From contig JABSSW010000008.1 of assembly GCA_018902385.1 (NCBI GenBank), positions 248,001 through 312,000 of the forward strand: a stretch of DNA of 64,000 nt, in the 5' to 3' direction. Origin of the DNA: Physcia stellaris (lineage: Eukaryota > Ascomycota > Lecanoromycetes > Caliciales > Physciaceae). Positions 28,009 to 57,811 of this stretch are shown in pieces. Each line of letters begins with the position of its first letter. Position 1 is the stretch's first letter. The notes under the pieces were generated by a model. That model ran no database searches. It was given only the letters and a program-made list of their open reading frames with translations, and was not told the DNA's origin. Position numbers and translations under genes: made by a program.

Positions 28009-28290
28009 CACTTTGGACTTAATATGGAACTAATCTTCGATCGAGTTCTGTCATGGTGCGACTTGATCCTAGATTGGCCCATATGTTGGCCGAGAGTTAT
28101 CAAGGTAGCAATGATTCTGAATGAATGCATTGGTTCAATTGACTAGGAAACATCTATCTAGGAGATGAAAATACATGATGTGGAAGTGCCAAGGAGCACG
28201 TGATGTACGGACCGTCATATTATCCGATTAGATCATCTATTGCTCTGAACTCTTAATGCTTCAACAAGATTGTTTTATAGTTTCTGTTGA
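28009..28290. other. Transition from gene compartment to AT-rich block
   Basis: The Nudix 3' flank has normal base composition. From about 28290 the sequence turns abruptly AT-rich. Confidence 0.6.
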
Positions 28291-28369
28291 TTCAAAACGT
28301 GTAAAACTCGTACTAGAAATAATATAATCTATTGAACTTTTGACATCAAAAATGTATAATTTGAAATGC

Positions 28370-28620
28370 ATAAAACACAATTTATAAAAAAATATTTAAT
28401 AAATTCGTTTGACGCGAATAATCAATCGAGAAAAATTATTAATTAATAATACAACAATCGAAATTCTTTTCATCAATTGAAAATATTGAAATAAATGAAC
28501 GTTCAAAAGAAAAAATTCGTCAATTTTTTTTTTAAATCAATCATTCAATATTTTGCGTTTATACAATTGTTTTACAATTTGCACAATAATTATCAACAAC
28601 GTGTTTTTTTATTATAAATT
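28370..28620. repeat. Repeat G, mutated copy
   Basis: An AT-shifted version of the 26060-26360 repeat in the same orientation. Just upstream (28344-28361) l8 bases match the subterminal word of LTR family A (GACATCAAAAATGTATAA). Confidence 0.45.
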
Positions 28621-29203
28621 CATTAAGTTTTGAAATCGTTTTTGCGTTTTTCAATAATACGAAAATTGATCGAATCGATTTATTATTGTTAATGATATTA
28701 TCGTTTCAACGAATTTCGATAATTATTGTTTATTAAATTTAATTTTGTCAAATTTACGATTTTAACAAAATTTCAAAAAAAATACGATTTATGTTTTTGC
28801 ATTATTTTGTTTTTATTCAATTCGTATCATGATTTTTTTCGATCAATTTGCGTTTGTTGTTAATAAATTTCAAAACAATTTTTTTATTTAAATCGTTAAT
28901 CGTGTTTACACATCAATTTCAAATATTTCAAAAATTTTGATTTTATCATTTCGTTCGTTGCAAATTTTACGCATTTGATTTCAAATCGATTTTTTATTAA
29001 TATTATCGATATTGTTAATCAATTTGTGCAAAAAAAAAATTCGCGATAAATTTCGAAAAGACGTCAATAAAATCATTTCAATTGTCGATTTTTTGTTTTT
29101 GAAATTAAAAAAATGTTTAACAAACGTTCAAATAAAAAAACGAATCGAATATTTGAAATTAATTTCAATTTCGTTTTTTACATTTTTTTGTTAATTTGAA
29201 AAT

Positions 29204-29508
29204 TGTAAAAAACATGACATCAAAAATGTATAACAAAAAACGATATTATTTCTAAATTAATAATTGCAAAATTAATCATTTTTTACACGATTTGTTATAT
29301 ACACGTTTTGTTTAATGCAACGTATACATCATTTAACGCATATATGCAAATATCGATGCGTTAATCGTTGTTGCGTTGATTTTATTCATAAAATGAAATT
29401 GTTCGTTTCATGATATAATCGATTTGATGTTTCGAATTTGTTTGATTTGAATTTTTGACGAAATTCGATTCGCATTGTTTGCAAATTTTGAATTTTGAAT
29501 TCATTACA
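29204..29508 (-). mobile_element. Lone LTR of gypsy family A
   Basis: This 305-bp sequence begins TGTAAAA and ends TTACA on the plus strand. Read on the minus strand, it matches the LTRs at 32886-33194, 45876-46195 and 52130-52450. No partner LTR with matching target duplication was found. It is old, heavily mutated and probably solo or a remnant. Confidence 0.65.
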
Positions 29509-30041
29509 AAAATTTCGTTAAACAAAACGACAATTCGCGCGTTTTGCAAATCGTGTTTTTTTTTTCGATTTTTTTTTTCACAAAAACGACGATTACGATT
29601 TCGACGATTTTTTTTTATACGTTTATACGCAAATTTCGTCGATCACGAATCGAATAAAAAATTCAAACACGTTTCGAATCGAAATAATGACGAAAAAAAA
29701 TCACGTTTGTTCAATAAAAAAATAAAAAAATTTACGCAAAAAAATTTATTAAACAACGCGTTCGAATTCGAAAATTTAATTTTAAAATTTGACGTAACGA
29801 CAAAAATTTGAATTTTAATTATATTATCGTTTGCAAAAAAACGTAATAATTGAAAAATATAAATTGTTTAAATTTTAAAAAAATTACAACGTGTGTTTAT
29901 TTTGCGATGTTTATTAATACGACGAAAAATGTTACAATAAATTTTTCGATAATAAATATTGACATTGTTGCGTTAACGACAAAATTTCATCAAATACAAA
30001 TAGATTCGAAAGTTTTTTTAAAAAAAAACTTTGTCGAAAAC

Positions 30042-30360
30042 TTTTAAAATTAGAATCAAATTTGATAAGATTGCAAAATTTCTGCATCGAAATCAGAATT
30101 TTAATATTTCGCATTCGTTTTGCAATTTTATCGATTTCGCATCTTGATAACATTTGCATTCGATAAGCAAAACATACAAACAAACATTCATTTTGAAACA
30201 CAAAATGAACATTATTCAAATAATCAACAATATCGAAAATTCGACGTTGACGCATTGAGTTATGATCGAAATCGTATTGAAATGATGCAAACTTTGCGAA
30301 AAATTGAATTTTCAAAAAGACGCAACGACGTAATCTTCGAAATTTCAAAATTATTGCGAT
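30042..30360. repeat. Repeat F, copy 1
   Basis: About 300 bp similar to 37570-37834 in the same orientation (shared words ATTTCGCATCTTRATAACATTTGC and GCATTGAGTTATGATCGAAA, shown with R for A or G). It is probably an internal piece of a retroelement and is heavily mutated. Confidence 0.5.
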
Positions 30361-30429
30361 AATGAACGAATTTTTGTCATTTTTGCAACGTTGAAATGCG
30401 TTCATTCTGTTTTACAATTAGAATTAGAC

Positions 30430-30690
30430 AGAAAAAAATGATGCGTGATTTATGATTGCGATGCAACGTGTGCAACAATTGCACGAACGCAAAAAGTTTG
30501 ATGATTGATCGAAAAAAAATTAGTTTTTTTTTCTTTTTAAAAATTTGAAATCTCAATTGATGAAAATTATCAAATTTAACGAATACGAACGCGAAATTGA
30601 TCAAAATTTTTCTCGATCGATCATTTGCGTCAAGCGAATTTATTGAACATTTTTTTATAAATTGTGTTTTATAATAATTTTTGAAACAAA
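30430..30690. repeat. Repeat G, inverted mutated copy
   Basis: The reverse complement matches repeat G at 26060-26360 and 28370-28620. Confidence 0.45.
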
Positions 30691-31680
30691 TTTTGAAATT
30701 ATAACGAAATTGCTCGACGATTTCGAAAAAAACGCAATTTTACAACGAAATAACAATTTTGAATATTTCGATTATTTTTTTATGAAATTCGATTAACAAA
30801 CAATTTCAATTTATTCAAACGATTAAGCAAACAATGCAAAAAAGTTTAAAAAATAATTATTATAAAACATAATTTATAAAAAATGTTTTTGATTATTTTT
30901 ATTTGACTTTTTTGTCGAATCAGAAAGTTAATTTTTACGAAATAAAACATTAATTTTTATCGCATTTTCATTTACAATCATTTTGTGAATATACAAATTT
31001 ATGAAATAATCAAATTGTATAATTAATCGAACGCATTTTAATCATACATAAATCAAACAAAAATAAACAATATTGACAATAATATTTGTTTTGAAAATAT
31101 TGAGATTTTTAAATTGTTATAATTCAAAAAATCTTTTGTTAAATTCGATAATTTTTATCAATTGAAAATTCAAATTTTCAATCGAAACATATATCAAAAT
31201 CATTTCGAAACAACATTTAATTAAGAATTTTTTTAAAAAATTCAAAATCTGTTGTGTTGATAACGTTTTGTCGTTTATCAATGAAAACGCGAAAATAAAT
31301 AAATTACACAACGTTGAAATTATTTTTCGCATTATAAAATCGATTTATTACATGTTGAATGTTTTGTTTGCAAATTCAAATAAATGTCGTCGTTTTTGTC
31401 GAATATAATCGTTGATATTTTACAAAACAATTATTGAAACGTTTGATTCACGATAAACAATTGTTTGAAAAAAAAATTGACACGTTACAAATTTTGATAA
31501 TCAAATGCAATTCGTACGTTCAATCGTTCAAAAATTGCAATAATCGTTTGAAAAATAACGATTTTAAAATCAAAATCGTTTTGAAACAACATAAATTCAA
31601 ACGATTGTTAAAAAATACGCACAACAAATTTATTTTCGAAAAAATCGTTATTGTTTTGAAAGTTTTTAAAATGTTCGATT

Positions 31681-32640
31681 TGTAAAACGCATATTTAAAA
31701 AACAAATAACATAACGAAAATATTTGATTTAAAAAACAAATATGTACAAAAAAATTGAATGAAAAAAGTAAATTGTAAACGTCAAATCATGATCGCGTTA
31801 ATTTTATATAAATTTTCGTTAATAAAATAAAATTTCAATCGAGATTTTCAAACATGTTACATGTTCGTAATATTATTTTTTTCTTTTTTTTCAAAATTCG
31901 TTTCGAAATGAATATTTCATTTTTTTTATCGATCGATATTGCGAAAAAAAATTGTTGATTGTGATTCAAATATCAATTTAATTATCATAAAAACAAAAAA
32001 ATTCAAAACAAATACGATAAACGTGAAAACATAAATGTGAAAACAAAAATTGCGAAAACGAAAACAGAAAATATTTGCGAAAATTGCGAAAATGAAAATT
32101 TTATATGAAAATCTTGTTGAAAATTTTTATTTATCGAAGCAAAAAATATTTGCAAATTCATATAATAAAACGATCGATTTCTCGAATAAAACAAAAACAA
32201 AAACAACAAAACGATATCGATTTCGCGAACGTGTATTGTTTCAAACTTTTCGATTTCGAATTTTTCGAATTTTTATTAATCGACGCGTTTTAATTGATTG
32301 CAAATTTTGTAACGAAAATCGTTTGACAAAGTATTGACGTATTAACGATAACAAAAAATTGCGAAAAAAACAAATTAAACTAATTGCGTAACAAATTCAC
32401 GTTGATTGTTGTTTTTAATTTTTTAATGTCATTTGTTTTCGTATCGTTGTTTTGATGTAATAAATTTATTTTCGTTAAAAATATTAATTGCGAAAATGTA
32501 AAAAATCGAACAAAACAAAACATGCGTTTTTAATTTCATTGAAACAAATTCATTAATCATGTTAAAAATTGTTTCAAAAATGTCAAATGACAATTTCAAT
32601 AAAATTAACGTCGTCGCAACGCGAACATGTAAATATTTTT
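31681..32640. mobile_element. Mutated relative of LTR element C (partial)
   Basis: 31681-31872 matches the 184-bp LTR of element C (61517-61700). The following sequence to about 32570 tracks element C's internal region in the same order. No second LTR was found, so it is partial. It is old, AT-shifted and broken. Confidence 0.7.
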
Positions 32641-32885
32641 TGATACACATTTTGTTAATTAATTAATTAATATTTATTTATCACAAACAATTCAATTATC
32701 GTTGTAACAATTGATAATATCATTATACGATGACGTTTTTCGTTTAATTATTGTGTAACGTTTATTTGTTGTGCAATATTTAATTTTCGTGAAACGTTCA
32801 ATTCGACAAACGATAAATCGTTTTAATTGTTTTGCAATATTTATTCAATCAAAAAATATTTATTTATTTATTTATTTCGAATTTT

Positions 32886-35800
32886 TGTAAAATTCAAAAA
32901 ATATGACATCAAAAATGTATAACAGAAACGATTGTATGATTAAATTAATAATTGCAAAATTAATTATTTTACAAATTTTTGTTTATATAATCAATCAATT
33001 TGTTCAATCGTACACACATTTCGAAATCTAATCGAAAATATGAACTTGTTGAATTCAATCGAAAATTTGATGTTAACGTGATCAAATTGATCGTTTTCAT
33101 GATTTATCGAATTTCGATGATCGAATTGTTTGATATAATTTTATCGAAATTCGATTCGCAATGTTTTGTTGATTTGAATTCTGAATATTTTACATGCGTT
33201 TTTTTCTTAACATAGAAATTTTTTGAAATGATTAACATTTTTCGACATGTTTCGCAATAAAAATTCGTTAAATTTGTGTAAATATGATTTTTTTTTAAAT
33301 TTAAAAAATCGTCAATTTGTAATCGCGATTTTCGCATTTGAAATCGTTGAATTGAAAAATCATTGTCATCGTGATTTTCGCATTTGAATATTTTTCATTT
33401 CGATTTTTAGTCAATTTACGTTAAAAATCTGAAAATACATTTTTTTAAATGATTCAAAAAAACATGATTTGATGATTTTATTATTTGTTGCTTTTAAAAT
33501 CGAAAATCTGATTTCGTACAATTCACAATTTTCGATTTGATAATTAACAACTAATTGATTGACAATGAATTTTGAATTCGAATCGTTTTTTATTTTTTTG
33601 TTATTTTTTTTCGTATATCGAATTCATGAAAAATTTAAACGCGAAAGACGTCGTTGTCGCGATCGCATTCGATATATCAGATTTCGAAATTTTTTTTTTT
33701 TTCATTTCACATTTATTTCGTCGTTCAATCAAATCGAACAATAATTTCTGAAAATATTTTTGACACGATTGATTCTTTATGCGTCGTAAATTCTAAATAA
33801 TAAATAACATTGAATTACGTGTAAAGATTGAATTTTTTTGTTAAAAACAAAAATGTGAAAAAAATGAATTGTAAATTATCGAGAAGTTTCGATTTATAAA
33901 TTTTAATTACATGTGAAAAAGAAATTTTTTTCGTTTTTTTTCGTTAAAGTTAATCATTTCAACGAACAAACATTCAAATCAAACAAATCAAATCGTCGAT
34001 GACATTTAACATTTTTTGTCAACGATTTCATCGTGAAAATTACATTTATTTGACGTCGAACGCGTCGACGATTGATAATTTTGTTGACATCATTTTTTTT
34101 TTGAATTATTCATGTGAAATTTTCGAAACATATTTTTTAAATGTTTAATTATTGCAATTGACTTTCAAATACGTTTTTCGTAATTTTTTCATTGAATCAA
34201 ATAATAAAATTCTGATTCATTGTATGATTTATTCGAAATTTGATTTTCTTTATAAATTTTGTTGTTCAAAATGATTTCAATTCAGAATTTTTCGTTCGTA
34301 AATTTTTCGTCATTTTCGATATTCGATTGATACGTGAATTTTAACGAATTTTTTTTTTTTTAGATTTGATTTTTTTCAACAACGAAACGTGAAAAACGTC
34401 ATGAATTCGTCAACGTTTGAATATTTCGAATTGATATATTTGATTTTTTATTGTTTTAAATATTTTGAATGAATCGAAAAATTTTCATTCGAATTTTTTA
34501 TTGCGTTTGATGCGAATGTTTTTGTCATTGACGTTGACGTAATTTTTTACGTAAAAACGTTTTATTTTTGTTTTTGCATTTTTGTATTTGATTTGTTGTT
34601 TTTGTGCGTATGTTAAATTGATTTTCAATATTTTCATCAATTCGATCAATTTTTCGACATGTTTTTTCGCAAATTTTGATTTAATTTTGAAATTTGCAAA
34701 TTTTTCGAAAAACATTCTTGAAATATATTTTTGCATTGTTACAAAAAACGACATTTGCGTTGACGTATGTTTATTGTTATTGTAAACAAATTCAATCATC
34801 AAAAATAAATTTATTCAATAATTTTGTTAAAAATTGACGTAAATTTTGAAATATTGTTTCATGATTAAGTTTTGACGTTTCGTTTGATCATTTGTTTACG
34901 AATAATAAATCGTGAATAATTTAAATTTGATTTTTAAAGCATAACATAAAACGTCGTGTTATTTCGAAATAAAAATCGATTTTTTGTTTGTTGTTATCGA
35001 TGAAAAAAAATCATGAAATTTAATGATTTTTCGAATCAATATTTCGACGAAATTTTTTGCGATTATTGTTTTTTTGATCGAAATGTAATGTGTCATTTTC
35101 GTTAAACGATTTACGACAACGAATATTGAATTATACGTTGTTTTGTTTCATGTTTTGTTTTCAAATAAATTTGTCACGAAATTCATAATAATGTCAATTC
35201 ATTTGAATTTCGATATAAAAAAAACGATAATTTTTCGTATGATTTGTAACGAAATGTTTTGTTTCTTTTGCAAATTGCACATGTTTCGTAATATTTTTTT
35301 ATTTGTGTTCGCATGTTTGAATCATGTTAAATTTTTTTTTTTCGTTCGATCAATAATATTTTCGTCGTATTAATTTCAAAATACGTTTTACATCGAAATG
35401 ATTTGCGAAAAAATTGTCATGATTTGTTTTTATGACGTTTTTTTTTTAATTCGATGAAACGTACAAACGATTTTCGTGTTACAATATTTTTTTTTCGTTT
35501 ATTCAAAACGAATGTGATTTTTCAAAAATAATTAATTTTTGTTTCATTTGAATCGCACAAAAATTTTCTTTTAACAATGAACGAATCAATTCGACAAAAT
35601 TGTTAATGATTTTATTGTCGTATGTTGCATCATGTTTATGAATATGTTTTCGCGCAATCATTTCGTCGATCGATTCGAAAATCGTTATATTATTTAATAT
35701 TAATGTTTTTCATTCGTTGATAATCACGTTTGATATATTTGAAACGTCAAAAAAATCATTCGAAAAATTGTTATTTTTATTTTTTTCATTGAATTTGAAC

Positions 35801-37540
35801 ATCGTTGTTTTGATTTCGTTCACATAAATCGAAAATTCGTTTAAATTCGTTTGTAAAAATTGTCGCAAACGCGTCAAAATTTGACGATTGTTTTCAATTT
35901 TATTTTCGATGATCGTCATGTAATCAAATCGTTTTGACAAATCGTTCGCAAAATTTTTATTGTCGAAACGATAATCGATGACAAAATTGTAACGTGACAA
36001 TTTTTGTGTTCATCGTATTTGTCGAAATGATAATTTTGTTGTAATCATGAAACGATTGAGATTTCGATGATTCGTCAAAACGAAAATTTGTTTTTTCGTT
36101 TTTTTCAAATAATGACGTCAATGTTTAAATGCGAAAATTATGATCAAAAATTTTTTGTCGTGAATTTCATAATTACATTTCGCGAATATCATTTTTTTCG
36201 AAAAATAAATTATCGAATGTCAATGATTTTTGTCGTTTGATTGATAAAATATTTTTTTTATTGTTTTATTCGAAACGTCGATTTTTACACGAATGAATTT
36301 AATCGAATCGAAATGTTACAAAACAGAAATTTTTTATAAACGTTTTGCGTAATCGTTTAAATGATTCGAAAATTTCGAAAATCAAAAATTCGTTCGATAA
36401 TCGTTTTTTATTGTAATTTTTATTTCGATTTTGTTTTTTTTTAGTTTTTTTTAATGAAATTTTGTTAATTTTTTTAACATGAAAATCAAAAATAATGTCA
36501 ATTTATTGAAATTTTTGATAAATCGTTTATAAAAAATGTACAATTCGAAAATTTCGAAAATTTCGAACACGTTTTTAAATGTAAATCAATTTTATATGAT
36601 TTCGATTTTGTTTTGTTGCATTTGCATTTTTTCGATGAAACGATAAAATTTAAAAATTCGATATTATTTTTGAAAAATTTACATTTTTTCATGTTAAAAA
36701 AAATTTGTGCTTTTTTAAACGATTTAATATTCATTTGACGTTTTCGACGTGTTATGTTTCGTTTTTGAAATAAATAATTATATCGTTCAAATAAACAATG
36801 ATCGACAAATTTAATCGTTCGATCAAAATTTTGTTGACGAAATTTTGAAACGTTGCAAATACATTAATGAAATCGAAAAACATAACGATATATTCAAAAT
36901 ATTCGTATCGTGTTTTGAACGTTGTTTTTCATTCGTTTTTTTTAATACGAAATCGATTGTAAATCGTTATCATGTCAAAATTTGTATATTTGCGAATTTT
37001 GTTTAAACGATTCAAACTTTCATCGATTAATGATAAAAAATATTTATTTTTGATCGTTAAAAAATTAAGACTTTTGTAATTTACGTATAATCGTAAAATT
37101 TCGTTTTTTTTTTTAATGAAATAATTATTTTTTTTAATGAAAACTTTTTTAGTATTTTTTTTAAAAAAGTCGACATATTTCTTTCAAATGTAATTGATTT
37201 TCGAATTGTTTTTGATTTTGACGTTTCAAAATAATTGTGCGATAAATTTTTCTTCAAAAAATTACAACAAAAAAAATTTAATTTTGTTAAAATTTTTGAC
37301 GTAATCGTTCATTTGATTTATGTCGAATTGATTTTTCATTTTTCAAACGTATTGAATTCATTTTTTATAATTATTTTTCACGAATAATTTTGATTTGTTT
37401 TTCATTATCTTAATGTAAAACGATTTTTTTTTAAAAACAAAAATTTGAACGATCTAAAATACAAATGCACGTTGTAATGTTTTTATTCGAACATGTTGTT
37501 GTTGAATATATTCGATATTTTTTCATGATAACACAAATTT
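32886..37540 (-). mobile_element. Ty3/gypsy family A, 5'-truncated fossil copy
   Basis: One LTR of about 309 bp lies at 32886-33194 and corresponds to the 3' LTR of a minus-strand element. The adjoining sequence (33195 on) matches, in reverse, the region just inside the 3' LTR of the copy at 45876-52450. Integrase-like (about 34500), RNase H-like (about 35800) and reverse-transcriptase-like (about 36600) remnants follow in minus-strand order. Gag-side sequence extends to about 37540. The 5' LTR is missing. It is old and broken many times over. Confidence 0.7.
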
Positions 37541-37569
37541 GTTCGTGAATTTTTTCAAAAAAATTTCGT

Positions 37570-37834
37570 GCAAAGTTTCAGAATTAGATTTGAATCTGAT
37601 AAAATTGCGAAAATCGATATTTCGCAATTGCTTTGCGATTTCAACGATTTCGCATCTTAATAACATTTGCACTCAATAAATAAAACATACAAACGAAAAT
37701 TCGTTTTGAAATTCGAAATGAATTCTATTCAAATAATCAATAATATCAAAAATCGATCGAATGCGCATTGAGTTATGATCGAAATCACATCGAAACGTTG
37801 CAAACACTTGAGAAATTTGAATTTTCAAAAACGT
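37570..37834. repeat. Repeat F, copy 2
   Basis: Similar to 30042-30360. Element B inserted at its right edge. Confidence 0.5.
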
Positions 37835-40800
37835 ATCATGAATCGTGTTTGAATAAACGTATTATTGATTAACTAAACGAAAACAATAAATTTGCAAAAA
37901 CAAATAAATACAAAATGTTGAAATTGCAAACAATGTGCGACGTCAAATTTCAAATCACGTTAATTTCAACGTAAAATTAAAACATAATTCGTTGTTCGAT
38001 CACATATCAAATTAATTATTTATTTGTCAAATCTATTTGTCAAACATGTTCGTAACATTATTTTTTTTTTCGCGAACGTCGTTTCGACGATTCGTTGTTG
38101 TTTCGAAAATGAAAAATTTTGTTGAAAATTTTATTGATTGATTTGAATGTTTGTAAAATTCAAAAATTTCACGATTATCATTTTTCATTTTCAAATGTTT
38201 CGTTATTGTTTCAAAAATCGATAAAATTTGACAACAATTTTTGAAAATGTTTTTGACACGATTCAATTTTTCATGCGACGTAAATTTTGATTGTAAATAA
38301 CATCGAAACGATAACGAAAATTAAAAATTGCAAAAACGTTACGAAAATGAAATCGAAATGAATGTACGAAATTCGAAATTTTTAAATTTTAATTGAATGT
38401 AATTTCGATTAATGTCAACATGACGATTTTTTTGCGAAAACGACGACGATTCGTTGAAAAATTTGATTCGTTGAAAACGTTTTGAAATATTGAAATCAAC
38501 GTTTTAAACGACTTTGAATTTGCAATCGTGAAATAAATGCGATAAAAATCGTTCATTACGTCGCGAACATTATCAAATTTTTCGTTGTCGACATAATATC
38601 ATGTTCGATCATGCGATCAATTCGATCAATTGACACGATATTGAAAACGATTGTAATGATATCGAAATTTCAAAATATCGTTTATTTTTCATTCGAAATT
38701 TTCGTTAATTATAACAAAATCAAAAAATTTATTGATTTGATTTTCGAATAAATTACGAAAATTTTTGCGAAAAAATCAACAAATGAAACATATCGTAAAT
38801 ATGCATAATTTCAAACAATTCGAATCGATAAAATTGTTCATACGTTGTAATATTTTGTAAAAATTTAATTTTTTGTCATCGAGTTTGTCAAACGATTTGA
38901 TCGTTTTGATGTTTCGTCGATCGAAAAAAACGAAATTTTTTTCGACGTATTTTACGATTTTTCGATGTTTGTTGATTTGAATTGTCATACGTTTTTGAAT
39001 CATTTTTGCATGATTTCGTACGTAATTAAAAATATTTTGTATCGTGTCGATAATATTTTTTGTTTTAATGATCAAAAATCGTTTTTTCGTTGTAATATAC
39101 GAAATAAAATTTGATGAAAAATTCATACGAAAATGAAAATTTTTATTGATAAAAAATGAAAATAATTTTGTTGTTACAAATACGACGTTGTTGTTTGCAA
39201 ATTCGATCATGAATAATCAAACGTTTCAATCGTTTTGTATGTAATTGCAATATTGTCGCAATTGTTTTTCGATATTTTGATTGATTTTTTCGATTTGTTT
39301 ATCGATTTTTGAATAAAAAACGATGAAAAATTTACATTTGATGTCGAAAATTCGACAAAATGTTTGTCAAACGAACGATATGAATTGAAAATTTCGATCA
39401 AACGTTATCGAAAAAAATAATTCATATGTACGAAATACGTAATTGATGAATATTTTGATCGTGATTTTAACATTGATATTTTCGTCGTCGACGATACAAA
39501 ACACGTAATAACGTTTTTTGTTAAAATTGTTAATTATCGTGTATATGACATTATAATCGTAAACGTCGAACAATTCGATGATGAAATTCATTGATATGTC
39601 GATTCAACGTTGCAAAAATATAATCAAAAAAATAAATAAATCGTTTTTGCGATTTTTGAAAATTTTCGTGCGTTGACATTTATGACAATTGCGTACGTAT
39701 CGACGAATCGTTTTGCGCATGTTGAATCAATAATAATCGCGACGTATAAAATTTTTCATGCGATTAAATTTTGAATGTTTCGAAACAAAAAATTCATGAA
39801 TTTTTTTGAAAAAATCAACGAATAAAAAAACATCGACGAATATTCAAAATCGATTTTTTCGATATAAAACGTCGTTTTTTTCAATGCAATTTCGTAAATC
39901 AATTTCATTCATTGAAATGAAATTTTGTTCGATAATTTCACGATAAATCGTGCAATCATCGTCAATTTTGTTAACAACAAAAATTCGTTCATAAATAAAT
40001 TCGTCAATTTTCATCGCGTGAATTTCGAATCGTTTCGAAATAAACAATATTTGTTTTCGATATTGATGTCGTTCGTCAATATCGTTTTTTGATCGTGAAT
40101 CAAACATACGAATCAAAAAATATTTGTTTTAACGTTTTGAATTTCGAATTAAAATTGAATGACAATATTGAATTTCGAAAAAATTTCTGTTCAACGAATT
40201 TAACGAAAAATTAATTTTTTTGACGTCATGAAAATTTTCAAATTTTTGTGATCGATGAAAATTTTGATCGATTTTTCAATGTTTTTAAATTCAAAACGTC
40301 AATGTTTTAAACAACGAATAATGATCAACAATTTTTTGTTATAAATTTCGTAATTGCATTCGATTGAAATCATGTTGCGATTATAAAAAACAACGAAATG
40401 CAAAATTTTTTCGTCATCGTATTGAAATAATATTTTCGCATTGACGTAATCAAAAAAGTCAATTTTCAAAATGATTTGTTTGATTCGATCGTAATGTCGT
40501 AATATGAAAATTTCGATCATCGTTTTTTTGAAAAAATTGAAAATTTTTTCGATTTCAACGATTCATTCGAAATTCACGAACTTTTTGATTATTCGAATGA
40601 AAATTCGAATTTTTTTCGAAAAATCACGAATGAATCGTCTGTAAAAATTGACGAAATTCACGAAAATTTGTATTTTTTTCAAATTTGTAAAACGTTTTCA
40701 ATTGACAATGATTTTTATTTTTTTCGAATTTATGCGAAAATCATTCATCGATAATATGACGTTCAAAAAAATCATTTTTTTTTGAAAAATTCGCATTTTT

Positions 40801-44527: not shown

Positions 44528-45470
44528 AATGTCAATGTTTTCAAATTAATATGTGAAATTGTAACGAAATTTTTTTTTTTTAGTTTTTATTTGTTTCAAA
44601 AACGAAACATAAAATATATTATGAATTCATCGTCGTTTGAATATATTTATACGATAAATTTGATTTTTATAATTTCGAATATTTTGAATGATTAAAAAAA
44701 TTTTCATTTTAATTTTTTATTTCGTTTAATATTGAACGAATATGAATGATTGTCATTTATTGCAATGCAATATTATCGAAATTACGTACAAAAATAAATA
44801 CAATTTGATTGCGCAAATGTTTTTAATAATGATCGATTTTGACACGTTTCGTTTAATCGATCAATCAGAAATTTTGATTTTATTCGTGTTTATATTTCAA
44901 TTTTTTGTCATCGTATTTTTTAACATTTTCATTCGATGACAAATATTCATTGTATTCGTGAATGCGATTTTAAAAATTGAATTTCAATTTTTGCATTGAT
45001 TGTGATTTTTCATTGAATGTTAATTCGTGCAACGACGTAATTTTCATTGAATTTCAATTTTTACGTTTATTAATGAAAAAAACATTGAATTTTTTTCATC
45101 AAAAAATCGAATTCGAACGATTTCGAAAAAAATTATTTTGAATTATTATGCAATTCGAATATGAATACGATCAACGAATTTTTGTTTTCAATCATAATTT
45201 GTTAAATTCGTACAATCGAATTATTATCGTTTTAAAATAAAAAAAATGACGTGATTTTCATCAAATTCGAATTTTTTTAATTATTGACGAAAAAAACACT
45301 GATTTTTTTTGATCAAAAAATTAAATTCGAACGATTTCAAAAAAAATCATTTTGAATTATTATGCAATTCAAATTTGAACACGATCAACAAATTTTTGTT
45401 TTCGATCATGATTCGTCAAATGTGTACGATTAAATCATCAACATTTTAACATAAAAAAAACAATTTTAAT
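44528..45470. repeat. Retroelement fragment plus tandem duplication
   Basis: 44540-44770 resembles, on the minus strand, the region after the gypsy A integrase. 45065-45470 holds two copies of a unit of about 214 bp (landmark TATGCAATTC at 45147 and 45361). Both are fossils; the tandem unit may be an LTR or subterminal repeat of copia element D. Confidence 0.45.
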
Positions 45471-45875: not shown

Positions 45876-48800
45876 TGTAAGAAATTCAAAATTCAAAACT
45901 TGCGAAACGAATTTCGTTTGCGAAATGAATTCGTCAAGAATTCAAATCAAACAGATTCGAAACATCAAATCGATTATATTTTGAAATAGCAATTTCGTCA
46001 TATTAATAAAATCAACGCAACAACGATTAACGCATCGATATTTGCGCACAAACGACAATTGATGTGTACGTTGCATTTAACAAAACGTGTATATAATGAA
46101 TTTTCTGAAAAATAATTAATTTTGCAATTATTAATTTAAAAATTATTTTGTTTTTTGTTATACATTTTTGATGTCATTATTTTACGAATTTTACATTTTA
46201 ATAATTATTGAATCATTCGATTAGCATCATTCATTGTATTTTTCATTTTTTTTTTTTTTTTCATCGAACTCGACGATGAATTCGTTTTTGATTTTTCAAA
46301 GTCAAATGTCGTCGCAAAAAAATATCGAACATATATAAGCAACAACACGCTCGATACGAAACATTACGAAACGCATCTAATTTCTCAATCGTTCAAATTA
46401 CTGTTTCTAAGAAAAAGTCATTTTATATCAAGATAATGAGAAACAAATCAGATTTCTTCTCGAAAAACAACTACGCAAAATGAATTCAATACGTTTGAAA
46501 AATGAAAAATCAATTTGATATGAATCAAATGAACGATTACGTCAAAAATTCTGATAAGATTAAATTTTTCTTTGTTGTCATCTTTTAAAAGAGAATTTAA
46601 CGCACATTTGCTATGAAAGCGTCAAGACAAAAAACAATAAAAATCGAAATTATATTTGAAAGAAGTATGTCGATTTTTTCAAAAAAAACATCAAAGACGC
46701 ATTCATTCGAAAGAAGAATAATTTCGAAAAGTATAAAAATTACAAGCAATTAGCTCATCAGTTAGTAAAAGATTACGACGCACAAAATCGTTTTGATTTC
46801 GAATTTACATTCAATCATGAAATTCTCGTCAACAATAAAGTTGCAAGATTTCGTACTGAATTTTACACAAAATAATCAGAACTTTTTGATCGAACAAGAT
46901 ATCGAGAACGACAAAAATCAGATTTTGAAACGTTTCAAACAGCGAAAAAACAACGAGCGCAAAAAACAGCGAAATATCAACAAGAATAAATTTGATAACG
47001 ACGTCAACAAACGCAAAAGAAATGATGAAAACTTCGATTCAGACGAAAATAACAATCAAAATCAATTCAATAGAAATCGAGAAAGAAATCGAAAAAATCG
47101 AAAAAACGATAAAAAATTCAAATCTAATAATTCTAATCGCGAATCAGTCAAGAATAAGAAGTTATGACGATGAATCAAGATCGAATACAAAAATATTCGA
47201 AATAACAACAAATGTATTGATTGCGACAAGTCTGAATGTAATATCAATGATTGCAAAAACATCAAATCGAATACGCACTCATTTGAAAAAATCTTTCGAA
47301 AATCGAAGTCAAAAAAGTAATCGATTTGATGATTTTCAATCAAATTGACACAAAGAAAAATTCAATATCAAACGAATGTATTAATTTTAATCATGACGAT
47401 TTCTTTACAATCGATATCGAGATCAAGAATGTCAAACGTCGTCGTCGAAAATTTCGCATGACTAAATGTAAGAAAACAATGATCAAGATGAACAAAAAAT
47501 CTGACGAAAAAGAAAAACTGAAATTCGAAATCGTCATGAATTTTGAAAAGCAAAAATTAATCTAATAAGTCATATTTTCGTTAAACAATTTGAATTAATA
47601 TTTTTCAACGTATCAAATTACGAGATCGTGACTATAGATAATCACTTTTTCAAAAACTATGAAGTTTATTTCGTTCAATTCGAAATACAAAACGAGAACG
47701 ACGTAAATCGTTTTTTCAATGATAATTTTCTAAAAACAAATCTCGCATGAAGTATAACGTTGAGTCTGTTCTGAATGCAATTGTCAAAAATCAATGTAAA
47801 TTGAAAAATCGATAAAATCGAATCGTGATTACTAATTGTAAAATCAATTCTTTTTACAACAAATCGTATCGAAAAAATTGAATAAAAAAAACTAATCAAC
47901 GCGATAATTAATAACAAAAAACAAATTTTTGTCATGTTCGTACGAATTATTCATAATGAAATGAAAAATTTAAATAACGTGCATATCGAACGAAAAGTTC
48001 AAATCGATTTTGTTTTCGCGAAAATTGAAAATAAATCAAATATCAAAATCATTATTTTCGAAATTTTGAAAAAGTTTGTTGATTTGACAAATGAAAACAA
48101 AATATATAAATTATTTGATTAAAAATCAAACGATCACGCAATAAATTTGAAATTTGACATAAAATTTTCATATAATTTCATTTATTCGTTGTCAAAAAAC
48201 GAATTTAAAATATTGCGAACATATTTGAATAAACATTTCAAAAACGATTTCATTCGATTTTTCATTTTTTCGATTGACGCATCAATTTTATTCGTCAAAA
48301 AAAAACGAAACGTTGAAATTATACGTGAATTACAAAAATTTGAATTTTTTAACGATCAAAAATAGATATTTTTTATCGTTAATTGATGAAAATTTGAATC
48401 GTTTAAACAAAATTCGCATTTATACAAATCTCGATATAATAACGACGTACAACAAATTTCGTATTAGAAAAGACGATGAGTGAAAAACAGCGTTTCGAAC
48501 ACGATATGAACATTTTGAATATATCGTTTTATTTTTTGATTTCATTAATGCATTTGCAACGTTTCAGAACTTTGTCAATAAAATTTTAGCGAAACGACTC
48601 GATTTCTGTGTCATAATATATTTCGACGATATCGTCATTTATTTTATGAATCGAAAGCAACATATCGAGAACGTCAAATGAATTCTTCAACGTTTAAAAA
48701 GCACAAACTTTTCATCAATATTGATAAATGCAAGTGATTTACGAACAGTATCGACTTTTTGAGCTTTGTCGTCTTTTCAAAGAGTGTGCAGATGCAAAAG

Positions 48801-51800
48801 AATAAAATCGATGTCATACAGAATTGATCGATCTCAAGAAACGTGTCAGAAATCTTGAAATTTCTAAAACTATGTAACTTTTACAGACGATTCATTAAAG
48901 ACTTCAATAAGTTAACATTATTTCTGATCGTTATGCTAAAAGAATCAGCAAAGTTTCACAAAAAAAAAGCAAAAAAAAAACGCAATCGAAACAAAAATCA
49001 AAATCGAAATAAATTATCGAATGAATTTTTGATTTTCGACGTCTTCAAAACTTTCAAACGTTTACGAAAAGATTCATGAAAACATCTATTTTACAGCATT
49101 TCGATTCGATTAGACTCATTCGTGTGAAAATCGATGTTTCGAATAAAACAATAGATGAGATTCTTTGTCAATCAGATGACAAAAATCATGACATTCAGTA
49201 ATTTACTTTTCAAAAAAAATGATTTCGACGAAATGCAATTATGAAAGTTCACGACAAGAAATTTCTGATCATAATTTTCGCATTCAAACAATGACGTCAT
49301 TATTTGAAAAAAACGAGAAAACAAGTTTTCGTTTTGACGAATCATCGAAATTTCAATCGTTTCATGATTACAACGAAGTTATCTTTTCGACAAATACGAT
49401 GAGCGCAAAAATTATCACGTTACAATTTTGTCATCGATTATCGTTTTGACAACAAGAATTTTGCGAACGATTTGTCAAAACGATTCGATCATATGACGAT
49501 CATCGAAAAAGATTGAAAATAATCGTCAGATTTTGGCGCGTTTACGACGGTTTTTACAGACGAATTCGAACGAGTTAAAAAAATTTGCGTCGAACGAAAT
49601 CAGAATTACGTTTTTCAAGTTCGATGAAAGTGAAAAGAACAATTCTGCGAATGATCTTTTTGAAAAAAATGAAAAAACAATTTTACGAATGATTTTCTTA
49701 ACATTTTCGATGAGAAATCAGACGTGATTATCGATGAATGAAAAACAATAATATTGAATAGTGCAACGATTTTCGAATCGATCAACGCGAAATGATTGCG
49801 CGAAAACATATTCACGAACATGATGCAACATACGACGATAAAATCGCTGACAATTTCGTCGAGTTGATTCGTTCATTGTTAAAAAGCAAAACTCGTACGC
49901 AATTCAAGTGAAACAGAAATTAATTACTTTTGAAAAATCACATTCGCATTGACACGACAAAAAGAAAATATTATGACACGAAAGATGTTTGTACGTTTCG
50001 TCGAGTTTGAGAAAAGAACGTCATAAAAGCAAATCATGACAATTTTTTCGTTGATCATTTCGAGATAAAACGTAATTTTTGAATTGATACAACGAAAATA
50101 TTATTGATTCAATCAAAAAAGAAACGATTTCGAAAAAACGTCGAGCATTTCAGACATGCGTACACAAATAAAAAAATATTGCGAAACATGCGCAATTTGC
50201 AAAAAAACAAAGCATTTCGACACAAATCATACGAAAAATTTCGTCTTTTTCATATCAAAATTCAAATGAATTGACATAACAATGAATTTCGTGACAAATT
50301 TATCAAAAAGCAAAACATGAAACGAAACGACGTACGATTCAATACTCGTCGTTGTAAATCGTTTGATCAAGATGACACATTACATCTCAATCACGAAAAC
50401 GATGATCGCGAAAGATTTCGTCGAAATATTGATTCGAAAATCATTAAATTTCATGATTTTTCATCGTCGATAACAACAAACAGAAATTCAATTTTTATTT
50501 CAAAATATCATGACGCATTGTGTTATGCTTTAAAGATAAAACTTAAATTATCGACGATTTATCATTTACAAACAGATGATCAGACGAAACGTCAAAATTC
50601 AATCATGAAACAATATTTTAAAATTTTCGTCAATTTTCGACAAAACAAAATGACTGAAAAGTTATTGTCGATGATTGAATTTGTTTACAACAATAGTAAA
50701 CATGTTTTCACGCAGATGTCATCATTTGAAACAATGCAAAAATATACATCAAAAATGTTTTTCGAAAAATTTGCGAATTTCAAAATTAAATCAAAATTTG
50801 CAAAAAAACATGTCGAAAAATTGATCGCGTTGATGATAATATTAAAAATCAATTTAACATACGCACAAAAACAACAAATCAAATACAAAAATGCAAAAAT
50901 TAAATTGAAAAATTTCGACGTAAAAATTTACGTCAACGTCAACGACAAAAATATACGCATCAAACGCAACAAAAAATTGAAATGAAAATTTTTCGAATCA
51001 TTCAAAATGTTCGAAACAATAAAAAATCAAACATATCGATTTGAAATTTTCAAACGTTGACGAATTCACGATGTTTTTCACGTTTCGTTGTTCGAAAAAA
51101 TTATATTTAAAAAAAAAAAAAAAATTTCGCTAAAATTCACGTATCAATCAAAAAACATTGACGTCGAAAATGACGAAAAATTCATCAAAAAAAAATTTTG
51201 AATTGAAGTCATTTTGAACAATAAAATTTACAAAAAAAATCAAATTTTTGATAAATCGTACAGCGAATCAAAATTTTATTATTTTGTTCAATGAAAAAAT
51301 TATGAAAAACGTATTTGAAAATCAATTGCGATGATCAAACATTTACGAAATATGTTTAAAAAATTTCATGCGAAAAATTTCAAAAAAAAACAATACAAAT
51401 AAAATTATCAATCGTCGACGCGTTCGACGTCAAATAAATATTATTTTTATTGTGAAATCGTTGACAAAAAAATCAATTTTTCACATTTGATTCGATGTTA
51501 TTTATTGTTTAAAATTTACGTCGCATAAAAAATTGAATCGTGTCAAAAACATTTTCAAAAATTGTTGTTCGATTTGATTGAACGATGAATATGTGAATGT
51601 GAAATAAGAAAAAAAATCGAAAAAATTTCGAAATATGATATATTCAATGCGATCGCGATTACGACGTTTTTCGCGATTAAATTTTTTTTTTCAAATCAAT
51701 TCATGATTTCGACGTATGAAATAAAAAAATAAAAAAATAAAAAATGATTCAAATTCAAAATTCATTGTCATTCAATTAATTGTCAATCATCAAATCGAAA

Positions 51801-52450
51801 ACGATGAATTGTACGAAATCGAACGTTCGATTTTGAAAACAACAAATAATGAAATCGTCAAATCATGTTTTTTTTGAATCATCGAAAAAAATGTATTCAA
51901 ATTTTTAACGCAAATTGATTAAAAATCGAAATAAAATATATTCGATGCGAAAATCACGATTACAATGATTTTTCAAATCAACGATTTTTTGAATGCGAAA
52001 ATCGCGATTACAACGATTTTTCAAATCACGAACATGAAACATATTTACACAAATCAGAAATTTTTGTTGCAAAACATACGAAAAAATGTTGATTATTTCA
52101 AGAAATTTCGATGTTAAAAAGAAAACGCGTGTAAAAAATTCAAAATTCAAAATTTGCGAAACGAATTTCGTTTGCGAAATGAATTCGTCAAGAATTCAAA
52201 TCAAACAAATTCGAAACATCAAATCGATTATATCATGAAATCAACAATTTCGTCATATTAATAAAATCAACGCAACAACGATTAACGCATCGATATTTGC
52301 GCACAAACGACAATTGATGTGTACGTTACATTTAACAAAACGTGTATATAATGAATTTTCTGAAAAATAGTTAGTTTTGCAAAGTTATTAGTTAGAAATT
52401 ATTCTGTTTTCTTTATACATTTCTGATGTCATTACTTTACGAGTTTTACA
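45876..52450 (+). mobile_element. Ty3/gypsy family A, full-length fossil with LTRs and target duplication
   Basis: LTRs at 45876-46195 (320 bp) and 52130-52450 (321 bp) begin TGTAA and end TTTTACA. The target duplication GATTT is exact at 45871-45875 and 52451-52455. Parts in plus-strand order are gag-like (46.4-47.6 kb), protease/linker, reverse transcriptase (about 47.9-48.7), RNase H (about 49.1-49.5), zinc-binding and core integrase (50.1-50.98). It looks complete in length but has dozens of breaks. The centre (about 46.4-50.5 kb) is visibly less mutated than the ends. It is younger than element D, which it interrupts. Confidence 0.85.
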
Positions 52451-55400
52451 GATTTCAATGATTGAAATAACGATCGATTTTTGTTTACGATTCATTTATG
52501 ATATTGATTTTTCAACGAACATGTAAACGTATTCGAAAATCGATTTTTTGTTCAATTTATCGATTGCGTAATCAAAATTCGAATAAATTTTGATTTTGAA
52601 ATTTTCATTGTTGTTCAATTTCAAATCGTATACAAGATTTAAATTGATGATCGATCGAATGTAACAAAACAAAATTTTCATTGTTTTGTTGATATTTCGC
52701 AAAATCATTGAAATATTAATTTAATCGTTTTAATGCGAAAACGATATTTGAACGAACGTGTATGACGACATACATGAATTTTTCAATTTTGTGTTGATAA
52801 TTTTTTGAATCAATTCGTTCGTCGTTCGATTCAATTGATTTGAATAAATCGTAATCGTTTATGAATAATTTCGTACGTTCGTGTTTATCGATGTTCATAT
52901 GCAATTCATTCAATATTTCGTTCAAATAATGAGTTTGATTCAATCGAATAATTCGTTTTTTACGATCGCGAATGATTTTAATGTCAAAAAAATTTTCATT
53001 TTTTTTCAAATTTTTGATTTTGAATATTTTTTTGAATTCATTTTTGAATCAATTAATTTGTTCGTTGAATTTGACGACAACAAAAATGTCATTCACGTAA
53101 AAAAATAATATGATTTTTCGTTTTTTATGACGAAACATGCAAAAATCAATCGAAATTTGTTCGAAATTCAATTTATGCAATTTTTTTACGCAACGCTCGT
53201 GTCAATTTCTAATTGTTTGTTTCAATTCATAAAAATTTCGACGAATCAAAAATGCTTGTTCTGAAAATAAATTCACGTCGAATGACGATTTCATGTAAAT
53301 TATCTTTTTTAAAAATGATTTCGTGAAAACATTGTTGACGTTCATTTGATAACATTCGAGATTTTTCAACGCAACGATGACAAAAAACAAACGAAAAATA
53401 TCGAATTTGACAATTGAAACAAAAATATTTGTATAGTCGATTTCATACATTTGCGAGAAATTTCTTGCAACGAATTTGATTTTCAATTTGTTCAATGTAT
53501 CATTCACATGCATTTTGATTTTGAATATTCATTTATTGATGACGATATTGACGTTTTTCGATGAAATGACGACGTTTCAAATTTCATTGATTATTAACGT
53601 CGTCAATTCGATTTGAATGATTTCGAATCAAAATTTATTTCAAATGAAATCATTGATAATTTTTTGATAATTTTCGAACACAAATATGATTAACTTTTTA
53701 ACGAATTGTCAATTTATTTTTTTTGTTGTTGCAAATAAAATTCATTTATCGTGTTCGCATGTATCAAAATTTTCGATTAAAAAATCATCATGACGCGTGC
53801 AATTTTGTTGCGAATAAAAAATAATGTTCATTTCGTTTTTTTCGTTCGTGATATTTCGTTTACGTTTAAAAATTGTCACGTGAAAAAATTGTTGCATCAT
53901 ACGTGAAAAATTCGTGAAAAATGTTAATTTAACACGCGTTTGAATTGTCAATTTCGTCGTAAATTTGTTGATTTCATTTTTTTCATTTGATATATCGATA
54001 AATTCATCGTTTTTTTTCATGTGCATTGATTGAATTTTTTTTTTGTTTTTCGAAATCATAAACGCAATAAAAATCGAAAATTTCGCAAAAATTGATGCAA
54101 CAAAAATTGATACAAACGTTGATTTCATCGAAACGATTGCAAATGCAAAAATTATTTTGCGTGATTTTTCGACAAATCGTTTTTCAAATAATTCGTTCAT
54201 TGTAATCGTGAACAAATTCAACGATTCGATTTTTTTTATTTTTCACGTTCAAAAAAAAATTTATGTGATATTTGATGACATTACGACGATCGAAAATTCA
54301 TATTTTGTATTGAATCGTGATGTTTTCGTTATAATTCATAAACACGTTTGATTTTTTTGTATTGACGAATTTTTTTTTTTATTTTTTTCAAACAATGATT
54401 TGATATCAACAAACGAATAACATTTGCATTTTCAAACGCGTATGTAATTTATTGACGATTTGATATTTATTCAAATTTCAATAAAATTTGTCAATTGTCG
54501 TCAATTATTGATTTCGTGTTCATACGATTGCGAACATATGCATTTGTTTTTTTGTTTCAAATCAAAATTTTATAAACAATTTTGCATTTTAAATTATTGT
54601 TCGAATTTGATTTTCGATCGTTTTTATGACACGTTCTATTACGTCATTTTGAATTAAATTATACGAAACGATGTATTGTGAAACAATGTCGATAAATTCG
54701 CATTAAAAATCGAATATAAATTTCAATTTTTTGACGTTGTCACAACGTATTGTTTGTAATTTTCGTTGAATTTTTAATTTCATTTTCAATTTTCATTTGT
54801 TGAAAATTTTTGATGATCGATTTCGTTTGCGAAAAATAAAATTCACGTTCGTCGAAAATGATTATTCACGATTTTTAAAAAATATTCGTAATCGAATTTT
54901 GAAACGAATAAAAATTCACAAATATCGATAAATATCAATTTCAATATGTGAATTTTGCGTTCGATTAAACGACGATTATATGCATTAATCATTTTCGTAA
55001 TCGCATATATTTTGCATGAATCGTTGCGATTTTCAACAATGAATATTGATTTGCGTAAAATTGTGATTTTGTGCAAATTTCGAAATTTTGCAAATTTCAT
55101 ATGATCAAAACGTCGATGTCATAATTCGTATAAATTACGTTTTTTTTGATCAACATTTGAATCAATATTTGAATCAACATTTGAATCAATATTTGAATCA
55201 ATATTTGAATCAATATTTGAATCAACATTTGAATCAATATTTGAATCAACATTTGAATCAATATTTGAATCAACATTCGATAATTGAAAATCGATTTCGA
55301 TATTATTTCGAAAATCAATATTTATATCGAACAAAATTTCGTTCGAATTCACGATTGTTGACATTGCAAATGAAACAAACAAAATTTTAAAAAATTCAAT

Positions 55401-56305
55401 TGCAAACATCGTGTTGCTCGTTAACAATGCGTATTTTTTAAATTTTGATGTAATTTTGTTTATTATGTAAACATTTTTTTGAACGAATGTTCGAAATATT
55501 TCAACGTTTTGTTTATTGCGCATGAACAAATTATCGTCATTGAAATTTTTTATCAAATTTTTTTTGATAAAATGTTTGTCGAATAAAAAATTGACGTCGA
55601 AATCAAATACATAAAATATTTTCGTTAACGTGTTTTCATCGTTTTTGACGTGCATCGTTATTGAATCACATTGATTTGAATACAAATTTTTTTTTTTCGA
55701 TTTTAATCGTGCGCTTTTTAATCGATTTGAAAAATTCATTAAAAAATCGAAAATCGTCAATTATGTGAAACGAAACGTCAATGTTTGCAATTCAAACGAA
55801 TTTGAAAAATTTATTGATCAATTTTTTGAATAAAACGACGATTTTTTTTTCATGTGTTTTTCATTGTTTAAATCGATGTCGATGTCGAAATTTGAATTGC
55901 TATTAAACGAAAAAAAAAATCGACGACGTTGTACGTTTTGTGTTTTTTATTTTTGCGTAAAAATTTTTGATTTTTGTTTTTCGTTCATTTTTTTAATTTT
56001 TCAAAAAATCACATTTTGCGATTCGATGTGAATCATCGCAAAAAAAACATTTCGTTTTTTTCGTTTTAATTTTGAAACGACGAAAATTTTCGTCGAAATT
56101 GAAAAATCGTCGTTGAAATATGCGATAAAATTGACGACGATTATTTTTGATTATCAATATCGATTCGACGATTTTGTTTGCAATGAATTGTGTTTTTTTT
56201 TTTTTTTGCAATTTTGTTGAAATACAATTTTCGCAAATATGTTGTGCAAATGTTGCAATCACAATTCAATTGATATAATTTGACAAAAAAAAATTAATGC
56301 GTTTT
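52451..56305 (-). mobile_element. Ty1/copia element D, main fossil part
   Basis: Minus-strand remnants in copia order: a gag zinc knuckle of CX2CX4HX4C type (about 56.0 kb), an Asp/Asn/Ser repeat region (55.1-55.3), integrase-like sequence (about 54.9), a linker, then reverse transcriptase (53.2-53.5 and 52.7-53.0) and RNase H (52.5-52.7). The 3' end continues at 45875 beyond the A2 insertion, and family E interrupts the 5' side at 56306. Its LTRs were not identified in the window. Old, with dozens of breaks. Confidence 0.75.
55150..55275. repeat. 12-bp tandem repeat inside copia element D
   Basis: About ten copies of a TTTGAATCAATA / TTTGAATCAACA unit, kept in frame with the surrounding fossil reading frame as an Asn-(Ile/Val)-Asp-Ser repeat. 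The two unit variants alternate irregularly, which suggests expansion after a first duplication. Confidence 0.8.
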
Positions 56306-57811
56306 TGTTGAAATTAATGTTTTAATATTCGCACATTTTTTGTGTTTTCATTTGCATGTAACTTATTAAAAAAACGAAATTCAAAACAATAAAATGATAA
56401 TCATTCATGATTTTTTCAATAAATTATGAAAATCGAATTAGCAATTTTCGTTATTACATTTAATATCAATTACAACAATAACATGTCAAAACACGTCATG
56501 AACAATAATAATTAATCGTCGAACAATACAGCAAATTTTGCAATATTTCAACAATAATCAATTTCACGTGAAATATTTAATCTTGTCAAATTCGAAATCG
56601 ATTCAATTGCATTGACAGCATTCAATACATCTAGTACATTTTTAATTACATTGATAACATCTATTTATTTATTTATTTTTTACGAGTTTTTTACGAATTC
56701 GTTTATTTATCGAGATTTTTTACGATTATTTTAGGATGTCGAAATATTTACGCGAATTTTATCATTCAATCAGAATGACGATTTTTATTTTTTTTACGAA
56801 ATCAACAATTTTTGCGAATTTCGCATTGTTCATTTTCGAATTCGCAATCGTTATTTTTTTTTGATCATTTTTTTTTGCATTTGTTTCGACGCGAATGATT
56901 CGAAAACGCAAAATTTTCGATCGTTGTATCACGAACACACGAATTCAAATTTTATTAATGTTTCGAAATGCAATTGATATCAACAAACAAAAAAAGCGCA
57001 AGAAATCTATCATGCTCGAAAGCACGAATTGACAATGAAGAGCAAAATAAAGCAAAAAGCGAAAAAATTGTTGAAACAACAAAAAGAAACTCGTTTGATC
57101 AAAAAACGAACAGAAAAATATATTTGCAAACGTTGCAAAACGATCAAATTTGACAACAACATCAAGTTACACGAACATATTCGCATTCGACACGCGAAAA
57201 AGTCGAAATTTGTTCAACAATTTGTTGTTGTTTCATCTGTTTTCGAATCGATAATTTTTTCATTTTTTGTTTCGTCATTTCAATCGATCATTTCGTCATT
57301 TTTTTCGTCATCGAAATTTTTATCTTTTTCGATGTTTACATCAGAAATCGTACGCGAACGTTCAGAAAACGTATCATCGAAATCAATAATCGAGTCATTA
57401 ATTACATTTTTTTTCGAAATTTCGTCAAATTTTTCGTCGATTGCAACATCAAGAAAGTCGATATTTTGAACAGAAATTGTTTCACGATCTGTTGCGTCGA
57501 AATTTTCTCGTTTTTCGATTGCGACATTCAAATCGATGTGCAAATCGTTGAAAAATGCAAACATTGTTTGTTCGTCGATTTCGTTTCGAACGTTTACATC
57601 ATCGAAATTCTATTTCATCGTGAACGATTTGTTTCGCATGTTCGCAAAAAAGTCGAATTCATTTGATTTGCAACGACATCAAATGCGTTTTTATTTTTCG
57701 AAAATCTTTGACAAAAACAATTTTAAAATTTTTGATTTCATACAAAGTCGCATTACGTTATATTTTCATACGACGATTTTATTTGTTTCGAAATCGATCA
57801 AATTCGAAACA
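56306..57811 (+). mobile_element. Family E, mutated copy E', first segment
   Basis: 56306-56421 is a shortened, AT-shifted match to the LTR of element E, beginning TGTTGAAATT. From about 56960 to 57811 it is a mutated counterpart of the zinc-finger ORF of E, in the opposite orientation to E. Element E itself inserted at 57812. Old and broken many times; it continues at 60918. Confidence 0.75.

Follow-up and report, generated by a model that had tools for sequence, protein, structure and literature searches.

Introduction

RIP changes C to T only, treats both strands alike, depends on the base 3' to the target and falls on mobile-element DNA. The statements on individual fungi made below hold for the available portions of the cited papers. 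In Neurospora crassa the order of preference is CpA > CpT > CpG > CpC, and in Trichoderma reesei CpA and CpG are used about equally and CpC comes last (PMC5496416). CpT to TpT is a major transposon signature in Magnaporthe oryzae, Botrytis cinerea and Sclerotinia sclerotiorum, which carry a RID/Masc1 gene (Amselem 2015, PMC4352252), and the same change is dominant in alignments of RIP-capable fungi (PMC7882544). In Microbotryum and other basidiomycetes, repeat-biased C to T change occurs at CpG or TpCpG (PMC2621366, PMC4014442). CpA mutation plus 'CpC->TpT double mutations' have been described in Monilinia (PMC8959702). For Rhizoctonia solani AG8, Table 2 of PMC4014442 gives a CpC spacing of 214 bp versus 370 bp for CpG, in unpolarised SNPs between nuclei, whereas the text claims a CpG bias. 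According to a kingdom-wide study of 1,239 genomes, RIP-like defences share a CpA preference (Badet and Croll 2025, PMC12543289). Surveys of RIP and the index tools in general use presume CpA loss and TpA gain; in a region that is nearly free of CpC and rich in CpA, such a CpA-centred view can miss a strong mutator.

Here we describe such a region in a 64,000-nucleotide stretch of Physcia stellaris DNA (contig JABSSW010000008.1, positions 248,001 to 312,000), which was analysed as a whole and is called the window. Its mutated block (28226-57812) holds 0 CC and 3 GG, CT and AG are strongly reduced, and CA, TG and CG are retained. The block resembles the products of RID-dependent RIP in Neurospora crassa in that C:G to T:A changes hit both strands in a 3'-base context, in DNA that includes repeats, and leave AT-rich transposon remnants. 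However, its order, CpC > CpT >> CpA, CpG, is nearly the reverse of the Neurospora one, and TpA is not raised. Trichoderma reesei shares the C to T change in duplicated DNA, but CpC is last there and first here. In Magnaporthe, Botrytis and Sclerotinia CpT always appears alongside CpA and no CpC signature is listed in the available text (PMC4352252), while in the block CpC ranks first and CpA nearly escapes. Microbotryum and the other basidiomycetes target CpG, which is what the block retains best (1,700 CG, a loss of −15%). Dim2 of Zymoseptoria tritici also causes C to T change in transposons, via a DNA methyltransferase, but at CpA, CT being almost unmethylated (PMC8016269). The Monilinia, CpT-dominance and Rhizoctonia AG8 reports weaken the novelty of our case; none of them, as far as their available text goes, describes near-total loss of CpC with CpA kept. 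No CpC-first case of RIP was found in the open-access literature, which was covered in part for papers naming both RIP and CpC.

Extent and dinucleotide composition of the mutated block

All 16 dinucleotides were counted in 28290-57811, with the flank 1-28000 as reference. The preliminary description of this DNA had held that C before C or T is nearly gone here while CpA, TpG and CpG stay common, and the counts agree. CC does not occur and GG occurs three times (at 49535, 49549 and 56734), whereas base composition alone predicts 435 and 469, which rules out chance composition. The other counts are 177 for CT, 254 for AG, 1707 for CA, 1764 for TG and 1700 for CG. GC content is 0.247 in the block and 0.478 in the flank, where rho is 0.93 for CC, 1.08 for CT, 1.10 for CA and 0.87 for CG. 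If the ancestral block DNA is assumed to have had the dinucleotide frequencies of the flank, the loss amounts to 100% of CC, 99.8% of GG, 90.7% of CT and 87.7% of AG. The corresponding values for CA, TG and CG are 15.4%, 13.4% and −15.2%, CG being the best kept; CpA is therefore depleted far less than CpC and CpT.

The longest run free of CC and GG measures 21,309 bp (28226-49534). It is accompanied by runs of 7,183 bp (49551-56733), 1,131 bp (56736-57866) and 630 bp (60900-61529), as compared with a maximum spacing of 189 between successive CC or GG in 1-28000. The mutated DNA is broken by an LTR element, designated E, resumes at 60913 and extends to about 61530 (60913-61530); within this part 61006-61437 matches E at 58912-59352. 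To the left of the block lie ordinary genes with UBX, NUDIX, SURF1, CMS1 and Rac-like GTPase products, and they show no loss of CpC or CpT. The last of the flank genes is the NUDIX frame; it stops near 28005, some 220 bases short of the CC/GG-free run. Weak signs at 26 kb aside, 1-28000 is unmutated. Note that the left rim of the block (28225-28340, about 115 bp) is without CC and GG while CT+AG is normal there (rho 1.27), and it resembles a half-mutated edge.

TpA/ApT in the block is 0.46 and (CpA+TpG)/(ApC+GpT) is 1.37, and by the standard RIP criteria 0 of 58 1-kb windows is positive. Indices built on CpA and TpA are thus blind to this region, as had been anticipated.

Direction and sequence context of the substitutions

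Self-blastn of the window gave 38 matches, 30 of them at least 120 bases long. Four pairs of a less-mutated and a mutated copy were aligned and pooled, omitting sites with A, G or a gap in the mutated copy. Two pairs compare E with its mutated relative E' on either side of the E insertion; the first part of E' lies at 56330-57812 (+ strand) and the other at 61006-61437. The third pair is element C (61517-62356, +) and its mutated relative at 31681-32555 (+). The fourth is element A of the left flank (26083-26775, +) and its relative at 30015-30692.

In the pool, C had become T at 269 of 289 CpC, 283 of 364 CpT, 70 of 391 CpA and 51 of 342 CpG sites, so that the CpA preference usual in RIP, though not universal there, is absent. 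Conversion differs between CpY and CpR with an odds ratio of 27.6 (p 5e-154), and CpC is converted more than CpT (odds ratio 3.8, p 3e-8). The pairs agree one by one. For E and the first part of E' the conversions are 137/152 at CpC, 140/185 at CpT, 18/180 at CpA and 20/165 at CpG, and for E and 61006-61437 they are 70/76, 35/51, 5/53 and 3/38 in the same order. The C pair gave 24/24, 66/74, 30/110 and 13/96, and the A pair 38/42, 42/74, 17/80 and 15/68. A fifth, shorter pair outside the pool (26508-26792 and 37533-37803) has 9/11, 16/28, 1/33 and 4/28. Since the block lacks any CC, the seemingly kept CpC sites are those where the mutated copy lost the adjoining C, and the true conversion of CpC is near complete.

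Most differences between copies are C:G to T:A transitions, both strands are hit, and the base after C sets the context. Between E and E' there are 192 C>T and 120 G>A changes versus 34 of the types C>A, C>G, G>C, G>T and the other changes listed. Thus the claim drawn earlier from E and E' and from C and its relative at 31681, that C is lost mainly before C or T, is borne out by the alignments, and the pooled tabulation by neighbour places the context on the 3' side instead of an even spread. The same is true for the claim of some CpA loss: CpA is converted at 0.09-0.27 per pair and CpG at 0.08-0.22, while the per-site rates are 0.01-0.07 for reverse transitions (A>G and T>C) and 0.035-0.087 for transversions. 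Because these two background rates are low, CpA and CpG are in modest excess, which may reflect weak targeting or ordinary AT-biased change. Diverged copies inside the block bear on this point, and a 3.1-kb inverted pair is one example. The copies at 33977-37112 (+) and 48297-51506 (−) are about 82% identical (81.2% by self-blastn, 83.9% in a global alignment). Their C/T differences at CpA and CpG number 49/346 and 57/366 in one direction and 85/380 and 67/375 in the other. CpR has therefore not been frozen between these diverged copies.

Of a total deviance of 1920, the 3' base explains 733 and the 5' base 9 (8.8). The second 3' base accounts for 44 units alone and for only 11 beyond the first, and a model with the 3', 5' and second 3' bases and the pair reaches 773 of 1920. 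Rates on the two strands are alike, 0.929 and 0.933 for CpC and 0.776 and 0.779 for CpT. CpA conversion is unequal between strands (0.13 and 0.25), unlike that of CpC, CpT and CpG.

These numbers bear on two other kinds of agent. A dedicated DNA cytosine deaminase, AID/APOBEC-like or acting on double-stranded DNA, could read a 3' pyrimidine, and the change is indeed purely of the C to T (U) type and outside the usual RIP context. APOBEC-type enzymes, however, read mainly the 5' base, and a strong 5' context of the AID/APOBEC kind does not appear in the deviance. The equal strand rates give no hint of a processive single-strand deaminase, and strand clustering of the leftover CT and AG in the block was not seen (198 runs versus 209.6 expected, z −1.2), although saturation could mask it. 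We find a deaminase improbable. UV or chemical damage at dipyrimidines in poorly repaired heterochromatin would suit CC and CT, both of them dipyrimidines. But TC is a dipyrimidine too, and the main UV target, and the block holds more TCA and TCG (30.4 and 31.2 per kb) than the flank (19.1 and 16.0), with the 5' base nearly without effect, so that such damage is hardly credible as the cause.

CpC is lost before CpT

Outside the block there are stretches in which the mutation is incomplete. In the partly mutated part of element C (61441-62040) rho is 0.17 for CC+GG, 0.68 for CT+AG and 1.09 for CA+TG, and in a second stretch (62761-63600) the values are 0.08, 0.70 and 0.98. CC and GG have gone there while about 70% of CT and AG persists, which gives the order CpC, then CpT. 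Within the block, at 46-51 kb, where the inverted copy at 48297-51506 is located, CT stands at about 0.25-0.5 of expectation and CC at about 0, CC/GG being nearly absent. A partly mutated match to E at 63552-63966 shows a tract edge. Of the 38 CpY sites on one strand, the leading 22 have stayed intact and conversion falls in the last 16; the other strand has its conversions more scattered. The relative of element A in the gene-rich flank (26050-26800) has a GC content of 0.40, a slight CC deficit (0.77) and a CG excess (1.30), possibly reflecting the same mutation at an early stage. As a separate observation, the CG-rich, partly mutated stretch at 62837-63023 contains imperfect short direct repeats around a CTCGCGTA core.

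The same directed rule is thus found in three element families (E, C and A), in graded stages adjoining normal DNA. This argues against a sequencing or assembly artefact; methylation-dependent miscalls would moreover need to have erased all CC from both strands across 21 kb. Together with chance composition we regard an artefact as very unlikely.

An unmutated element within the mutated DNA

Element E (57813-60912) is an LTR element inserted in E'. It is essentially unmutated, with normal CC at 58001-60001, and its bounds are given by the LTR alignment, the flanks and an AAACAT target duplication at 57807-57812 and 60913-60918, which was read by eye. Either E arrived after the block had been mutated, or it escaped as a single copy. 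Its LTRs carry 7 differences in the first 28 or so bases; the other 160 or so show 2 substitutions and a single 1-base gap. We considered continued scrubbing of the block after E had entered, based on the LTR differences (10/191), but a clock of this kind was dropped because 7 differences lie in the first 28 bp or so and only 2 in the rest. In the part of the left LTR that adjoins the block (57813-57840), 3 of the 7 differences are of the CpY type (GG to GA, CT to TT, CC to TC). It is possible that this part marks a short leak of the mutator, about 30 bases into E, or a patch from an older copy.

The frame of E at 59179-60618 (−) looks intact, with 480 codons and a C2H2-like zinc-finger stretch, and in Pfam it matched no family above the cut-off. 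Zinc-finger frames like this one occur in filamentous ascomycete repeats. A search for relatives of E in viral contigs gave 4 pattern matches, none of which was confirmed, and the LTR stretch had 0 matches in viral and 0 in genome contigs.

Slow loss could in principle lead to a similar composition. A DIM-2-like methyltransferase acting on CpC and CpT in heterochromatin, followed by deamination of 5-methylcytosine over long times, would need no RIP event. In its favour, Neurospora DIM-2 prefers CpT according to the available part of a review, and functional Dim2 raises mitotic C>T change in Zymoseptoria (PMC8016269). The same Dim2, however, methylates CG and CA, some of the CC and hardly any CT, and the mutations it causes fall at CpA, as described in the available text of that paper. 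In addition, CpC is spent in the block while other changes are low: in the copy at 61006-61437, 70 of 76 CpC sites are converted versus 2 of 209 for A>G and T>C, and the C>T change looks fast. Furthermore, E lies within mutated DNA without such loss beyond its first 30 bp or so. We therefore think slow loss unlikely.

Repeats and the reach of the mutation

Of the 29,519 bases of the block, at least 15,536 have a match elsewhere in the window. Repeat dependence of the mutator is plausible. Against it stand the other 13,983 bases of the block, for which no match in the window is listed; they are if anything more fully mutated, with 9.5 CT+AG per kb compared with 19.2 in the matched bases. A minor observation is a tandem pair at 45031-45460, whose 214-base copies lie head to tail, are 83% alike and are both mutated.

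A probable RIP-type mutator with altered 3' specificity

A CpY rule was simulated on the flank with conversion rates of our choosing (C 1.0, T 0.9, A and G 0.1). It gave CC 0.00, CT 0.14, CG 3.28, CA 1.49, TA 0.44 and TC 1.34, with a GC content of 0.225, and the block has CC 0.00, CT 0.16, CG 3.76, CA 1.26, TA 0.44 and TC 1.41, with 0.247. This rule matches nine block ratios closely, while Neurospora-like and context-free rules are far off.

In sum of direction and place, C changes to T on both strands according to a 3'-pyrimidine rule, CpC before CpT; the mutation is confined to element-derived DNA adjoining intact genes, and the later insertion E is essentially untouched. RIP-like is the best fit for this pattern because the change is C:G to T:A and is read from the 3' neighbour, adjacent genes are spared and transposon remnants are hit. 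The preliminary description had thought of a variant premeiotic mutator or another deaminase. The pattern under that proposal, with C lost before C or T and kept before A or G on both strands of mobile-element DNA, stands by counts, alignments and simulation; as an interpretation the proposal is supported in part.

We consider it probable that the agent is a repeat-directed RIP-type mutator, a RID-type enzyme that reads a pyrimidine 3' to the target C and whose order of preference is CpC > CpT >> CpA, CpG. Such a mutator would recognise repeats and would turn C into T in transposon copies, on both strands alike, until CpC is nearly exhausted. It may act in the sexual cycle, by analogy with RIP. 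The enzyme would be a homologue of the RID/Masc1-type methyltransferases in which the readout after the target C has moved from a purine (A) to a pyrimidine. What speaks against this explanation is that the CpA preference usual for RIP is reversed here and that CpA and CpG are not wholly spared. The lack of strand clustering in the leftover CT and AG, the unequal CpA conversion of the two strands and the degree of mutation in the unmatched block bases also count against it.

It is also possible, though we hold it only tentatively, that the mutator is cleanly CpY-specific, a specificity not described before, and perhaps a distinct, non-RID enzyme that destroys transposons through loss of Gly, Pro and Trp codons. 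Similar regions elsewhere would then have been scored as free of RIP by the CpA/TpA indices. In the case of the RIP-type mutator, the RID or DIM-2 homologue of the host would offer a natural mutant in which to look for the determinant of the base that follows the target C. Amselem and co-workers asked about this determinant for CpT in the available part of PMC4352252.

Coding consequences and gene content

With CC and GG absent, codons for Gly, Pro and Trp cannot occur in any frame, and these residues are missing from all 121 open frames of at least 60 codons (10,409 residues, overlapping frames included); this is a mere consequence of the dinucleotide loss and no separate evidence. TAG is nearly absent as well, with 73 occurrences versus 1,616 of TAA and 1,792 of TGA in all frames. 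In three sample frames, a single hit would create a stop at 7-18% of CpA sites and 0.6-3.6% of CpC sites, and never at CpT. Thus a CpC/CpT mutator would kill elements through missense change and not through stops.

A 236-codon open frame at 50275-50982 (+), without Gly, Pro and Trp, retains remnant similarity to a Ty3 integrase (phmmer to Ty3 Gag-Pol 7q5b, E 4.8e-4). Pfam gave no integrase family there; a THUMP match of 20.8 bits, with the cut-off at 20.6, was taken as spurious. Among the 10 frames scanned of the 17 with at least 110 codons within the block, Pfam found no mobile-element family. Of the 48 other frames, 30 were scanned, giving UBX, NUDIX, SURF1, CMS1 and Ras, families that are found in eukaryotes and are not restricted to fungi. 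The CMS1 frame had no match among solved structures, and the Ras fragment is nearest to Rac1 among them. Rfam gave nothing at gathering scores and one weak match below the gathering score, and a tRNA search found none. A scan for fungal intron motifs was uninformative, with 29 versus 28.2 +/- 6.1.

Two coding repeats may be mentioned. An open frame of the block at 55119-55760 ends in a repeated Ser-Asn-Val/Ile-Asp series, a coding tandem repeat in mutated DNA. In the flank, the open frame at 24033-24683 contains a low-complexity coding repeat, in which an Arg-Asn-Arg / Ala-Ile-Leu pattern recurs, and also a His-Trp run.
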